A stretch of DNA of 5,240 bases from JALXCG01 sp026991065 [NCBI: Gemmatimonadota bacterium]. GTDB lineage: Bacteria > GCA-2686955. Numbering within the stretch: the stretch's first letter is position 1; the number at the start of each line of letters is the position of its first letter. The translations under genes and the position numbers were made by a program. The stretch is from NCBI GenBank assembly GCA_026991065.1, contig JALXCG010000539.1:1-5240 (forward strand), in the 5' to 3' direction. The notes below the pieces were generated by a model, which saw only the letters and a program-made list of their open reading frames with translations, searched no databases and had not been told where the DNA came from. Positions 136-4,131 of this stretch are shown here, piece after piece.

Positions 136-1629
136 TCAATTGCTGTACAAGAGATTGAGTCGCTGGATCCGGCGCCGCAGTGTAGATTCAGGGAGCTGCA
201 GGTAGTCCGCGGCCCTGACCTGCGTGCCGCCGGAGATCTGCAGGGCAAAGCGGATCAACTGTCTCTCCCGCTGCCTCTTGGCCTCCGCGAGCGAGAGTGA
301 AGCGGGTCTCCGCTTTGTGATTCTACCTTCCGGCCAGGCCTTGCGCCAATTCTGCAGCGCTCCGCGTACCTGGGCCCGGCGGAGCTGTCTGCCCTTTGCC
401 CGGAGCGCAAGGTCGCGCAAGAAGAGCTGCAATTCAGAGACGTTCCCGGGCCAGGTGTAGTTCTGCAACTCTGCATAGGAGTCGGGGCTGAGCCGGCAGC
501 GCAGCCGCTCGCCCCAACGGATCTCGGCCCGTTGCTCCAGGGCTTTGGCGAGAATCGGGATGTCCGCGCGCCGCAGACGCAGCGGTGGGAGTCGAATCAC
601 CAGGGATTCGAGTTGCTCCAGAAGCTCGGGAGCGAATTGCCTGGTCCGCACGCAGGCGGCCAGGTCGCGGCTCGAGGTGGCAATCAGTCGGGCGACGAAG
701 GGAACCTCTCTGCCGAGATCCAACGATATGATTCGCTTGCGCCGCAGCGTCTGTGCCAGGAGTCCTTGTAAGCGGAGGCTGAGCGCATCGAGGTCGATCA
801 GGGCCACCGAGCCCTGTCCAGCCTCCACCAGAAAACCGTCTCGACTGGAATCGGCGCGGTCAAAGGCCAGCGAGAAGTCGCCAAACGCTTCGCGTTCAAG
901 CGCCCCCGCCGGGTAGGTCGGCGTTTCGATGGAGAGCAACACACCCCGCCCTCTTACCCGGTGCAGGGCCCTGGCCACAACACTCTTTCCGGTACCGATC
1001 TCGCCCAGCACCAGTACCGGTTGGTCCATGGCACCGAAGATCGCAATGCGCTCACGGACGCGTTCCATGATCTCTGTGCGTCCGAAAAGGTCGCGGGTCG
1101 GCAGACAACTCCAGGCGCGACGGGCGCGTGCCCGGGCGCGCTGGTGTGCCTGCATGAGGTCCACGTAAAACGATAGCATGCGCGCCAGATCGGCCGCCGC
1201 CCGGCGTGCCCGCACACCGTCCAGGGAGCGTGTCTCCGAGTCCAGGTACAGGGATCCGACACAACCGCCGGTACCATCCAGGGGGGTCGCAATCAGACTC
1301 GCCACGGTGGGGTCCAGACGTTCGTGGCTCCAATCTCGATCAACGGCGCAGAGGGTTCGTCCCTCGCGCAGCGAACGCTGCGCCAGAGCACGTGCCGAGT
1401 TCCGCCTCGGGCCCCGACCGACAATGCTGTTGATGAGCCCCGCTGTGCCGATGCCGATGATCACCGCCGCATCGATCTGCACGGCTTTGTCAACACCGAG
1501 CCAATGCACGGCGATCCCAAGCGCGTCGGCCAGGAAATGATCGAGGCTCAGGCCTTGGGCCATCGCCTTAATTAAGGTGTGATCGAAACCGGTTCTCAGC
1601 CGGGTTCTGGCGTTGAGACCACTGTCCAT
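136..1629 (-). CDS. Degenerate sigma-54-activator-like regulator (GAF / inactive AAA+ / Fis-type HTH)
   Basis: A 497-residue protein starting at ATG 1629, likely a cytoplasmic DNA-binding regulator. Order: GAF-like sensor (about 14-160), Arg-rich linker (RARARARR, about 165-172), AAA+ domain (about 180-415), C-terminal Fis-type HTH (about 469-494, containing PESTLRRR). It aligns nearly gap-free with the protein at 2076-3611. Walker A is kept (GEIGTGKS, 209-216). GAFTGA has become LAFDRA (254-259). The Walker B Asp-Glu pair reads Ile-Asp (278-279), sensor I Asn is Ser (320), the two putative arginine fingers are Ala333 and Gln339, and sensor II Arg is Ser398. From what is known of the family, such a protein should not remodel sigma-54 RNA polymerase and probably hydrolyses ATP poorly or not at all. 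The start is chosen because GGGGAGG lies 8 bases upstream and homology with the paralogue begins here. In-frame ATGs at 1857, 1806, 1776 and 1767 would add up to 76 unlike residues. The frame is intact, so it is not called a pseudogene. Target genes and ligand are unknown. Confidence 0.9.
   Translation of the reverse strand: MDSGLNARTRLRTGFDHTLIKAMAQGLSLDHFLADALGIAVHWLGVDKAVQIDAAVIIGIGTAGLINSIVGRGPRRNSARALAQRSLREGRTLCAVDRDWSHERLDPTVASLIATPLDGTGGCVGSLYLDSETRSLDGVRARRAAADLARMLSFYVDLMQAHQRARARARRAWSCLPTRDLFGRTEIMERVRERIAIFGAMDQPVLVLGEIGTGKSVVARALHRVRGRGVLLSIETPTYPAGALEREAFGDFSLAFDRADSSRDGFLVEAGQGSVALIDLDALSLRLQGLLAQTLRRKRIISLDLGREVPFVARLIATSSRDLAACVRTRQFAPELLEQLESLVIRLPPLRLRRADIPILAKALEQRAEIRWGERLRCRLSPDSYAELQNYTWPGNVSELQLFLRDLALRAKGRQLRRAQVRGALQNWRKAWPEGRITKRRPASLSLAEAKRQRERQLIRFALQISGGTQVRAADYLQLPESTLRRRIQRLNLLYSN
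1566..1577. repeat. 12-bp AT-rich perfect palindrome inside the degenerate regulator gene
   Basis: CCTTAATTAAGG is a perfect palindrome in otherwise GC-rich coding DNA, near the 5' end of the gene ending at 136. On the coding strand it spans Thr-Leu-Ile-Lys-Ala codons and includes a TTA leucine codon, uncommon in GC-rich genomes. It may be a chance result of the protein sequence; a regulatory role is not shown. Confidence 0.3.
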
Positions 1630-1637
1630 CGCTCCAC

Positions 1638-1644
1638 CCTCCCC
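1638..1644 (-). promoter_or_regulatory. Ribosome binding site deciding the start at 1629
   Basis: The minus strand reads GGGGAGG, then 8 bases, then ATG at 1629. This is a good match to the 16S rRNA tail at normal spacing. It supports the short form of the regulator over the in-frame ATGs further upstream. Confidence 0.55.
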
Positions 1645-1817
1645 GACCTCGTGAGTGCGAGTGCCGAGCCCGCGGGTGCTGCTGTTCGGAATTGGCGGGA
1701 GCACGTCGCAAAGAGGGCATCTCCCCGCTGGGCCATGGGTGAGCGCGAGCGCTGCCGGCTGGGCCATCTCCGGCATCCATGATTCCCAGGGGGAGGTGAC
1801 ACACATACTGTAGCGTC

Positions 1818-1832
1818 GCAAGAAGCACGCCA
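1818..1832 (-). promoter_or_regulatory. Candidate sigma-54 (-24/-12) promoter for the degenerate regulator
   Basis: The minus strand reads TGGCGTGCTTCTTGC. Against the known consensus TGGCACG-N4-TTGCA it matches TGGC, the G at position 7 and TTGC. The invariant GG and GC are exactly 10 bases apart. A transcript would start near 1806, giving a leader of about 177 bases before ATG 1629. It would also exclude the longest possible start at 1857. It is directed into the degenerate paralogue, immediately downstream of a gene for an intact sigma-54 activator. Confidence 0.55.
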
Positions 1833-1870
1833 CGTCCGGCGCCGCCGCGCAATCCACAACTGGTGCGTGT

Positions 1871-1884
1871 CAACCGCGGGGTTG
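1871..1884. repeat. Inverted repeat upstream of the -24/-12 candidate
   Basis: CAACC-GCGG-GGTTG, perfect 5-base arms around 4 bases. It lies about 65-78 bases upstream of the start inferred from the promoter candidate at 1818-1832, so it could be a regulator site. Five-base arms are common by chance in GC-rich DNA. Confidence 0.25.
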
Positions 1885-2075
1885 CGCGAAGATCCGCGAC
1901 TCCCGTTCCGCCGGCCGGTCGCAGCGATCTGCGAGCAACCTCACCCCGCCCCGCGCGTTATTCCCTGTACCATTGGCGCTGACTGCAATTCGCCATTTCT
2001 TGTGCTTGCGCCGGATGCGGCGAGCCGTGGACGATGTCGGCGCCAGGAGCCTGTCGCATTCGGTGAGTTTGCTGT

Positions 2076-3611
2076 TCAACTCTGGTGAATGGCGACGGAT
2101 CGATGAAGGCCCAGGTGCGACATTTTGCGCCGCAGCGTACTCTCGGGCACCCCAAGAGTGCGGGCCGCGATGGTCTGCACTCCGTCAGCTTCGCGCAGCG
2201 CATCGCAGATCAACTCCCTTTCGAATTCACGCAGGTCTTCCACCAGGTTGCGCCCCCGAGACGGCCTGGGGGAGAGGCCGCGGTCACTGGGCCGGCCCGC
2301 GCGCCACTCCCGCAGTTCCTCCCGAAGCTCCTGTACCCGGATCACGCGATGACGGCTGTGGGTCGAGATCCGTTCCAGGAAGCCTCTGAGTTCACGCGTG
2401 TTGCCGGGCCAATCGTGCGTCGCCAGAGCGTCGATTCCAGCCTCGGTAATTGCGCGTGGGGTGGGGAGTTCCAGGCGCTCGGCCGCCTGTCTGAGCAACT
2501 CCTCGACCAGCAACGGCAGATCCTCCAAATGCTTGCGCAGGGGCGGCAGTTCGATGACCAGCGTGCGAATCCTCTCGAAGAGATCGGCCCGGAAGCGGCC
2601 GGAGAGGACATCCGCGCCGAGGTTCCGGTTGGTGGCCAGAATCAGCCGCGCGGAGATCTCGACCCGGTCATTGGATCCGACCGGTCGCACGCTTTTTTCC
2701 TGAATGGCGCGAAGCAGTTTGGCCTGCAAATCCAGCGGCAGATCCCCGATCTCGTCCAGGAGAATGGTGCCGTCTCCGGCCGATACAAGAAGCCCATCCC
2801 GGTCCCGGTTGGCTCCGGTGAAGGCCCCCTTCTTGTGCCCGAAGAGTTCTCCCTCCAGCATGCTCGGCGGGATCGAGGTGACTTCGACGGGCAGGAAACG
2901 CCCGATCCCACGCTCGCGATGCAATGCCCGCGCGACCAACTCCTTGCCGGTGCCGGGCTCGCCCAGTAGAAGCACCGGAATGTTGAGGTGTCCGTACAGC
3001 GCGATCTGTTCCAACACGCGTTGCAACAATCGGCTGCAGCCGGCGAGGCCGTAGTGGAGCGGGCCGTCGCGAACGGTACCGGCACACCAGAGGCTCCGCT
3101 GGTGGGTCTGAATGATCTCCAGGTAGGGCGCCAGCGCGGCGCAGAGTTGCTCGGCGACGGGACGCACCGCCGCACCGGCGGATCCGCCGGAATGAGCCCC
3201 GAAGAGGAGTACGCCGATCGGGCCCGCCTGGCCCAGTATGGGGCTGGAGATGAAGCTGTACGGCCCGGGGCGGGCAGCGCCGTGCCGGGTTCCGCGCCGA
3301 AAATCGCCACCCTGGTCCCGCGCAATCAAGGTGCGCCCGGACCGCAACGTACGTTCCACAATGGTGCGTGAAACTTCCCGTGCCCGGTCCGTCATCCCTG
3401 AACTTGCCAGAACAAAACGTTCACCGCTCTCCAGGCCCAGCAGCGCGGCGGAATGGACCGGGATCTGAACCTCGCGGTCGAGCCACTCCAGAGTCGTGCG
3501 CAACACACGGAGAAGCAGCTGCTCCAGTTCCTCCCTGCTGGAAACAGCATCGAGCAGTATTCGGTCCAGGACTCCGCGCAGCTCGAAGATCAACAGTCTG
3601 AAATCTGTCAC
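2076..3611 (-). CDS. Sigma-54-dependent transcriptional activator (GAF / AAA+ / Fis-type HTH)
   Basis: A 511-residue bacterial enhancer-binding protein starting at GTG 3611. It would bind upstream DNA sites and use ATP hydrolysis to open sigma-54 RNA polymerase complexes. Order: GAF-like sensor (about 6-165), AAA+ domain (about 185-415), Fis-type HTH (481-502, PESTLRRK). Visible motifs are Walker A GEPGTGKE (217-224), an exact GAFTGA loop (262-267), Walker B ILLDEIGD (283-290), sensor I Asn328, putative arginine fingers Arg341 and Arg347 in FRADLFERI, and sensor II WPGNTREL (401-408). There is no receiver domain, so control is probably by ligand binding to the GAF domain; the ligand is unknown. 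One oddity: the Asn usual in the segment after Walker A (family VNCAAIP, PspF Asn64) is Glu243 (VEVTSIP). The GTG start has AAGGGGG 6 bases upstream and matches where the paralogue starts. An in-frame ATG at 3863 would add 84 residues that look non-coding. It lies tandem with the degenerate paralogue and divergent from the HD-domain gene. Confidence 0.95.
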   Translation of the reverse strand: MTDFRLLIFELRGVLDRILLDAVSSREELEQLLLRVLRTTLEWLDREVQIPVHSAALLGLESGERFVLASSGMTDRAREVSRTIVERTLRSGRTLIARDQGGDFRRGTRHGAARPGPYSFISSPILGQAGPIGVLLFGAHSGGSAGAAVRPVAEQLCAALAPYLEIIQTHQRSLWCAGTVRDGPLHYGLAGCSRLLQRVLEQIALYGHLNIPVLLLGEPGTGKELVARALHRERGIGRFLPVEVTSIPPSMLEGELFGHKKGAFTGANRDRDGLLVSAGDGTILLDEIGDLPLDLQAKLLRAIQEKSVRPVGSNDRVEISARLILATNRNLGADVLSGRFRADLFERIRTLVIELPPLRKHLEDLPLLVEELLRQAAERLELPTPRAITEAGIDALATHDWPGNTRELRGFLERISTHSRHRVIRVQELREELREWRAGRPSDRGLSPRPSRGRNLVEDLREFERELICDALREADGVQTIAARTLGVPESTLRRKMSHLGLHRSVAIHQS

Positions 3612-3617
3612 TGATTG

Positions 3618-3624
3618 CCCCCTT
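3618..3624 (-). promoter_or_regulatory. Ribosome binding site deciding the GTG start at 3611
   Basis: The minus strand reads AAGGGGG, six bases, then GTG. It favours the GTG start over the in-frame ATG at 3863, together with the homology boundary shared with the downstream paralogue. Confidence 0.5.
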
Positions 3625-3679
3625 TTTGCAGAGATTTCCCTGTCTCGTCCGCTCTGGTGGGCGACCGTCGCAACGGCGA

Positions 3680-3695
3680 TGCATGCGGATCGCCA
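3680..3695 (-). promoter_or_regulatory. Weak candidate sigma-54 (-24/-12) promoter for the activator gene
   Basis: The minus strand reads TGGCGATCCGCATGCA. It matches TGGC and TGCA of the consensus, with GG and GC exactly 10 bases apart; the positions between are poor. Transcription would start near 3669 with a leader of about 58 bases before the GTG at 3611. If real, it would allow the activator to drive its own gene. It is weaker than the match at 1818-1832. Confidence 0.35.
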
Positions 3696-3711
3696 CCTGA
3701 ACTGACGGCTG

Positions 3712-3729
3712 AGTGGAGTCTCTCCCACT
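3712..3729. repeat. Imperfect dyad just upstream of the activator promoter candidate
   Basis: AGTGGAG-tct-CTCCCACT pairs over 7 bases with one unpaired C at 3724. It sits about 43-60 bases upstream of the start inferred from the candidate at 3680-3695, a place where an operator or accessory site could lie. Function is not shown. Confidence 0.3.
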
Positions 3730-3870
3730 ACATTCTGCATGGATTTGCGAAAAGCTGCCCGCTTCTCGGTGCCACTGAAGGTCCACAGGCCTTCTATCCT
3801 ACCACAATAACGCCTATATCTTCCGCAGCGCAGAAATTTGCGATTTGTGTGGCTGTTTCTCAAGAGTGGG

Positions 3871-3891
3871 CCGGCGGCAATCGCCGGTTTT
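3871..3891 (+). repeat. GC-rich hairpin followed by TTTT
   Basis: CCGGCG-GCAAT-CGCCGG has perfect 6-base arms, extended by G-U pairs in plus-strand RNA, then four T (3888-3891). It resembles a short intrinsic terminator on the plus strand. No plus-strand gene lies before it, so it would be a leader element if the HD-gene transcript began further upstream, or simply an operator dyad. Confidence 0.35.
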
Positions 3892-3897
3892 GGCGCT

Positions 3898-3925
3898 CCG
3901 ACCCGGCCGCGCGGTCGGCGCGGCC
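3898..3925. repeat. Two overlapping, mutually exclusive hairpins
   Basis: Arms GGCCGCGC (3905-3912) and GCGCGGCC (3918-3925) form a perfect 8-base stem with a 5-base loop. A second stem pairs CCGACC (3898-3903) with GGTCGG (3913-3918). The second overlaps the loop and one arm of the first, so only one can form at a time. This could be an RNA switch in a leader or a protein-binding dyad; in GC-rich DNA chance is also possible. Confidence 0.4.
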
Positions 3926-3952
3926 TTCGAAACTGATCGAGGTCGCTCCGGA

Positions 3953-3999
3953 TCTGTCACTGCCGCGCAGAGTCCACGCGAGTGATTTATCTCTGTCAC
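3953..3999. repeat. Octamer direct repeat with an embedded dyad
   Basis: TCTGTCAC occurs at 3953-3960 and 3992-3999, 39 bases apart. Between and overlapping is a dyad: TCACT-gc-CGCG (3957-3967) against CGCGAGTGA (3977-3985), complementary except for a 2-base bulge. It could be a regulator-binding site for either divergent gene. The evidence is pattern only. Confidence 0.3.
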
Positions 4000-4113
4000 A
4001 CAGGGAGGAATTCGCCGATCGTATGGTATTGTCCGATTCATGATCGCGGCGGGCGTCGCACGGCACCGGGCCGCGATGCCCACTACTGTCTGCTCGGTCG
4101 CAGCCACGATCGG

Positions 4114-4125
4114 GGAGGAGCAGGA
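4114..4125 (+). promoter_or_regulatory. Ribosome binding site for the HD-domain gene
   Basis: GGAGGAG at 4114-4120 lies 11 bases before ATG 4132, with a second AGGA at 4122-4125 six bases before it. Either could serve. The frame stays open upstream, so this purine-rich stretch is the main reason for choosing ATG 4132. Confidence 0.55.
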
Positions 4126-4131
4126 AACTGC

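Follow-up and report, generated by a model that had tools for sequence, protein, structure and literature searches.

Bacterial sigma-54 activators that lack the GAFTGA motif are known, TyrR, HupR, VpsR and NtrX being described examples as far as the cited descriptions reach. According to the parts of PMC3162934 and PMC10274813 cited here, TyrR, DhaR, HupR and others without GAFTGA act with sigma-70, and the initial annotation of the DNA studied here had named TyrR and HupR as members of the family that can act without sigma-54. Most described GAFTGA-less activators are treated as converted sigma-70 regulators. Paralogous activators, on the other hand, are described in the cited part of PMC9542535 as forming hetero-oligomers (VnfA1/VnfA3, HrpR/HrpS, FleQ/FleT and RedR1/RedR2). 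Here we describe a locus of the Gemmatimonadota bacterium JALXCG01 sp026991065 (assembly GCA_026991065.1), in which the gene of a motif-complete sigma-54 activator (P2) stands beside that of a paralogue (P1) that has lost the motor of the family and is retained as an intact protein. The window, i.e., the whole stretch of DNA analysed, is one entire contig of 5240 bases (JALXCG010000539.1).

The two genes lie where the initial annotation had placed them, within positions 136 to 3611, in the order P2, P1 on the minus strand and separated by 446 bases. A third gene, P3, is divergent from them (plus strand, from 4132 to the contig end).

2076..3611, minus strand: P2, intact sigma-54 activator, 511 amino acids (GTG at 3611, stop at 2076-2078)
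136..1629, minus strand: P1, dead-motor paralogue, 497 amino acids (ATG at 1629, stop at 136-138)
988..1011, minus strand: Walker A of P1, GEIGTGKS, intact (residues 209-216 by alignment; coordinates computed from ATG 1629)
853..870, minus strand: L1 loop of P1, LAFDRA replacing GAFTGA (residues 254-259)
139..267, minus strand: helix-turn-helix (HTH) region of P1 (approximately residues 455-497; HTH_8 match at residues 452-490)

A purine-rich AAGGGGG precedes the GTG start of P2. For P1 an alternative, longer frame opens at GTG 1857, and its 76 added codons score as coding-like; the ATG at 1629 is the probable start and is favoured over this GTG, as it aligns with the start of P2.

P1 and P2 can be aligned over nearly their full length (174/503 identical positions, 35%), and in both the AAA+ domain (PF00158), the lid and HTH_8 score above the Pfam cut-offs, with values for P1 of 80.8 (cut-off 20.2), 43.7 (27) and 29.1 bits (22), respectively. 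By homology, P1 belongs to the bacterial enhancer-binding protein family. Of the shared order GAF/AAA+/HTH that had been proposed for the two proteins, the AAA+ and HTH parts hold, but the assignment of a GAF domain is weak: with 26.4 bits, the GAF_2 match of P2 stays below the cut-off of 28.6, and no GAF match of P1 was found in Pfam at E values up to 1. P2 carries all signature motifs of a functional sigma-54 activator, as had been claimed for it, i.e., Walker A (GEPGTGKE), GAFTGA, Walker B (LLDEIGDL), ATNR, RxDxxxR, WPGNTREL and a Fis-type HTH. At the glutamate-switch position, however, which from an alignment with the PspF motif we take to be PspF N64, both P1 and P2 have Glu, a position held by Asn in 128 and by Asp in 28 of the 170 open reading frames (ORFs) compared. 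Given this Glu, P2 is not canonical everywhere and the strength of its own ATPase is uncertain. In P1, the alignment bears out each of the losses that had been read from the letters: GAFTGA has become LAFDRA, the Asp-Glu pair of Walker B (DE) has become ID, with Asp now occupying the Glu position, the Asn of sensor I is replaced by Ser, RxDxxxR by AxExxxQ, in which both arginine fingers are gone, and the sensor II Arg by Ser. By its GAFTGA loop, Walker B Asp-Glu pair, arginine fingers and sensor II Arg, P1 does not qualify as a functional activator. Walker A and the DNA-binding domain are retained, which is also what the initial annotation had reported.

The losses of P1 are not spread evenly. 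Fifty-two columns are at least 85% conserved across 170 other activator ORFs (duplicate loci excluded), and P2 keeps 50/52 of these, while P1 keeps 36/52. The 16 columns lost in P1 include the G and T of GAFTGA, the D and E of Walker B, both arginine fingers and the Asp between them, the sensor II Arg and the Gly preceding sensor I, whereas nothing is lost in or around Walker A. Lost are 7/9 of the columns in sigma-54 contact or catalysis vs. 9/43 of the others (Fisher p=0.002), the nine having been classed from general knowledge of the family after the list of losses was seen. P1 equals P2 in 84/256 of the non-conserved columns but keeps 34/43 of the conserved columns outside the motor motifs, which consequently have been held above background. 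In a survey of motor loss (172 rows, of which 7 without a motif block were dropped, leaving 165 ORFs including P1), 149 ORFs had lost none of the five scored motifs; one or more were missing in 16, three or more in 6, and all five in P1 only; most rows were drawn with P1 as the query, and the survey is a comparison and not a population rate.

Partial losses were also seen in this set. L024:1093-2496, L100:4569-5957 and L101:1-1314 keep GAF at the L1 loop and have lost the Walker B Asp and both arginine fingers; the best-scoring profile of the latter two is that of NtrX, under its cut-off. A deltaproteobacterial ORF (L041:1303-2547) combines an FHA profile match with a dead activator motor; a response-regulator activator with complete motifs lies approximately 2 kb away.

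In a quick maximum-likelihood tree with 172 rows, P1 and P2 come out as sisters with a support of 100, on branches with lengths of 2.02 and 0.44, respectively (4.6 times longer for P1). With P1 as the query, P2 is found at 234.9 bits and the next best of the matches listed at no more than 141.8 bits. With P2 as the query, however, one match reaches 244.3 bits over residues 194-502 and exceeds that of P1 (233.8 bits), so that identity to P2 alone is insufficient for sisterhood, which is established by the tree and the alignment of the N-domains. These indicate that P1 and P2 descend from one ancestor. The best matches listed outside the pair mostly cover AAA+ and HTH. Among the matches listed there is no clear orthologue of either protein in 386 genomes, including the sole family relative (G001). 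P1 was searched for in 41 and then in these 386 genomes, as well as in genome contigs (68 loci), and P2 in 2 genomes of the phylum, the 386 genomes and IMG/VR (11 loci), for both proteins with a few top candidates scored per genome.

The two proteins have diverged to a different extent along their length, with identities of 47/178 in the N-domain, 72/168 in AAA+, 22/80 in the lid and 21/44 in the HTH. In AAA+, P1 is no closer to P2 than unrelated activators are (median 0.44), whereas its HTH identity to P2 is reached by just 5/164 unrelated activators and by 23/2388 ORF pairs with a similar AAA+ identity. Conversely, ORF pairs with a similar HTH identity have a median AAA+ identity of 0.53, and 27/481 are as low as P1 and P2. 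The motor has, therefore, drifted faster, and the DNA-binding end has been held back. Judging from the HTH, the target sites of P1 and P2 are likely identical. The AlphaFold2 model of P1 (44 sequences) has a mean predicted local distance difference test (pLDDT) score of 74.7; most blocks from residue 181 onward exceed 87, the exceptions being 251-260, 301-310, 431-450 and the tail, and the score falls to 57 in block 251-260, where GAFTGA used to be. Residues 1-140 are poorly predicted. The best PDB matches of this model in Foldseek are NtrX, NtrC1, FleQ and ZraR, VpsR following at rank 15, and template modelling (TM) scores by query length range from 0.41 to 0.47 in the rows shown, since single domains align. 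The model predicts an activator fold, with known GAFTGA-less members among the nearest structures.

A dead motor may also be the first sign of a gene that is disappearing, i.e., P1 would be a duplicate heading for loss, of which the motor was lost first and the remainder is decaying. The many replacements in P1 (branch length 2.02), the loss of 9/43 of the other conserved columns and a codon score (0.15) slightly under that of P2 (0.20) and clearly under that of P3 (0.35) are in line with this, as is the fact that P1 was not found in G001 (84% complete). The initial annotation had named the absence of orthologues from close relatives as a sign of simple decay, and by that measure the result for G001 hints weakly at decay. 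P2 and P3 were likewise not found in G001, and it is thus the whole locus that is missing there, not P1 alone. The frame of P1 itself tells against decay: it runs over 497 codons without a stop or frameshift, where approximately 13 stops are expected in random sequence of the same composition, its codon score is well above that of its shuffles (-0.13, sd 0.04), and its G+C content by codon position is preserved (0.69, 0.50 and 0.74). When neutral drift was simulated without indels and with P2, not the ancestor, as the starting sequence, stops were absent from 21 of 100 runs at 90% identity, from 8 at 80% and from 4 at 70%, but from none of 100 at 60, 50 and 45%, where 5 to 8 stops had appeared; P1 stands at 35%. 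P1 also retains Walker A and most of the positions of the fold. It does not have the appearance of a gene long in neutral decay, and the earlier description of a motor-dead paralogue with an intact frame, in which the losses concentrate in the remodelling parts, is upheld. Selection on P1 may have ended recently, but we regard it as improbable that the gene is on its way to being lost.

Our tentative interpretation, held at somewhat below even odds, is that P2 is a sigma-54 activator and P1 a pseudo-ATPase counteracting or tuning P2, either at sites bound by both or within mixed rings. The roles suggested for P1 in the initial annotation, i.e., anti-activator, mixed-oligomer modulator or sigma-70-type repressor, are each putative. 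P1 probably still binds ATP, through Walker A, and DNA, through the HTH, but would not hydrolyse ATP, act in trans at the ATP site of a neighbour or grip sigma-54. It may lower the action of P2 as a competitor that occupies the same enhancer sites and/or as a dead subunit in P2 rings, which would interrupt the GAFTGA loops and arginine fingers. For PspF, the cited part of PMC3419264 describes lowered ATPase activity and constitutive hexamers upon substitution of R162, D164 and R168, as well as mixing of defective subunits in trans. P1 is without all three corresponding residues, and by analogy with this trans mixing it would, with its arginine fingers and loop lost, be expected to form a dead link in a P2 ring.

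Alternatively, P1 could regulate sigma-70-type promoters independently of P2 and with targets of its own, its position next to P2 being a relic of the duplication. This is how GAFTGA-less activators are described in the cited parts of PMC3162934 and PMC10274813, and the NtrC of R. capsulatus reportedly needs ATP binding but not hydrolysis, as far as its description goes, which fits the Walker A kept by P1. NtrX and VpsR are among the closest folds of P1, and the intergenic gap of 446 bases permits separate control. The GAFTGA-less relatives compared, however, have in most cases preserved more of the motor than P1 (in the NtrX proteins of L042 and L051, both arginine fingers and sensor II), and the HTH of P1 remains close to that of P2, so that we consider a stand-alone role possible but rather unlikely. 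If P1 does act elsewhere, it would still show that loss of the entire motor in such a protein need not extend to the HTH. An obligate heteromer of the two proteins, in which P1 would be a positive, specialised subunit in the manner of HrpR/HrpS or FleQ/FleT, is hardly probable. Heteromeric activators exist according to the cited parts of PMC9542535 and PMC4145663, both proteins have Glu at the glutamate switch, so that P2 alone may be a weak ATPase, and PspF N64Q is described as strongly defective in the cited part of PMC3419264. Yet P1 brings no cis catalytic site, trans arginine fingers or sigma-54 loop to such a complex, and as Glu differs from Gln the effect of N64Q may not carry over to P2.

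The interpretation of P1 as an antagonist of P2 can be extended to the control of P1 itself, based on a site in the intergenic region.

1818..1832, minus strand: candidate sigma-54 (-24/-12) promoter TGGCGTGCTTCTTGC, pointing toward P1 from 189 bases before its ATG

The host genome contains an rpoN gene. The TGGCGTGCTTCTTGC site is the sole exact TGGC-N7-TTGC in the window, and genome-wide this pattern occurs 265 times vs. 116 times for the reversed control pattern; by this genome density approximately 0.014 sites would be expected on that strand in 446 bases, several regions having been inspected. In a weighted scan, 4.7% of 300 shuffles of 1560-2100 scored at least as high as the site, and in the interval between P2 and P3 the best sigma-54 site of the same scan was not above chance (34%). 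P1 might be transcribed from this candidate promoter (1832-1818), and P2, as the nearest candidate activator, perhaps drives P1, which would make P1 a negative-feedback brake. Such a built-in brake, in which P2 induces P1 via sigma-54 and P1 then poisons the rings or sites of P2 and shuts the circuit, we consider unlikely.

Besides the absence of P1 from G001, several observations weigh against P1 acting on, and under the control of, P2. The tree program flags P1 as long-branched and of unusual composition, so that its placement is less certain than the support of 100 suggests. The recognition stretch of the HTH is identical in just 12/24 residues, and 8/164 other ORFs match P2 equally well or better there. 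With 47/178 identical positions in the N-domains, the signals of P1 and P2 may differ, and in the lid (22/80) the two proteins resemble each other no more than unrelated pairs do. When the whole window was shuffled, 50 of 200 versions contained at least one TGGC-N7-TTGC, so that the site could be due to chance, and between the candidate promoter and P2 no enhancer-like dyad above shuffles was found.

Other inverted repeats do occur in the intergenic regions. A dyad CGCGCAATCC / GGGTTGCGCG with 23 bases between its arms lies at 1846-1888, a short distance before the candidate promoter of P1. Between P2 and P3, overlapping G+C-rich palindromes were observed at 3894-3923, and dyads with arms of 8-9 bases in 3612-4131 exceed most shuffles, their count being reached by 3 and 2 of 200. 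P3 (4132-5238, plus strand) is truncated at the contig end and contains HPLR, LLHDKDED and KLADRLDNT, resembling the HD hydrolase part of RelA/SpoT; profile matches to PDB chains of the RelA/SpoT type are weak (best E 8e-4). It is 41% identical to a 412-amino-acid protein in G128 and was matched in 7/192 genomes, G001 not being among them. The host draft genome (G000) has a size of 4.14 Mb in 902 contigs and is 83.8% complete. Mis-binning of the contig was ruled out by its tetranucleotide fit to this genome, with a correlation of 0.960 with other G000 loci (29 loci; leave-one-out range 0.804-0.969) and of 0.859 with G001 loci. PF00158 was also encountered in open frames of approximately 1500-1700 codons, presumably large fusions, in G000 (contigs C837, C244 and C412) and G001 (C174 and C135).

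If P1 does act on P2, a motor-dead sister beside a live twin would be a natural example of a hexameric transcription machine with a pseudo-ATPase subunit, and the tolerance of sigma-54 activator rings for dead subunits would become testable. TyrR/PhhR, HupR, DhaR, VpsR and the NtrC of Rhodobacterales and Caulobacter resemble P1, as far as their descriptions go, in that AAA+ and a Fis-type HTH are present while GAFTGA is lost or altered. P1 has, beyond the GAFTGA loss of this TyrR/HupR-type group, lost Walker B, the arginine fingers and sensor II, a difference taken from these descriptions and not from a residue-level comparison, and it stays far below the cut-off of the TyrR profile (NCBIfam NF008085; 95.7 bits vs. 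576). Paralogous activators that work together (HrpR/HrpS, FleQ/FleT, VnfA1/VnfA3 and RedR1/RedR2) are described as co-activators, and those of the VnfA type bear N-terminal GAF domains (PMC9542535, cited part); the descriptions consulted of HrpR/S, FleQ/T, VnfA and RedR contain no statement that one partner lost its whole motor. Likewise, we found no description, in the literature as far as it was covered, of a fully motor-dead activator paralogue acting on a live twin, which is no proof of absence. In G001, the GAF-type activator relative L162 (on contig C139; L201:4775-6373) has, like P1, lost GAFTGA, Walker B, sensor I and the arginine fingers and kept Walker A, but it retains the sensor II Arg, is 28% identical to P1 over 210 residues, does not group with it in the tree and is not its orthologue; no second PF00158 match was found on its contig. 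The closest arrangement is the NtrC-NtrX pair of Alphaproteobacteria, where, as for P1 and P2, a motif-complete activator and a GAFTGA-less relative share one locus. In L042 and L051, NtrX scores 653 and 631 bits, respectively, against a cut-off of 600, and a motif-complete activator ORF lies approximately 2.4 to 2.6 kb before it. NtrX differs from P1 in having a REC input domain, in being orthologous across an order and in keeping both arginine fingers and sensor II, whereas P1 reaches 115.1 bits with the NtrX profile (NCBIfam NF051870), has no REC match and has lost more, and P1 and P2 are each other's closest relatives. Live and GAFTGA-less activators side by side are, therefore, already known from NtrX loci; what this one draft genome adds, the function of P1 being inferred, is a pair of sisters of which one has lost the whole motor.

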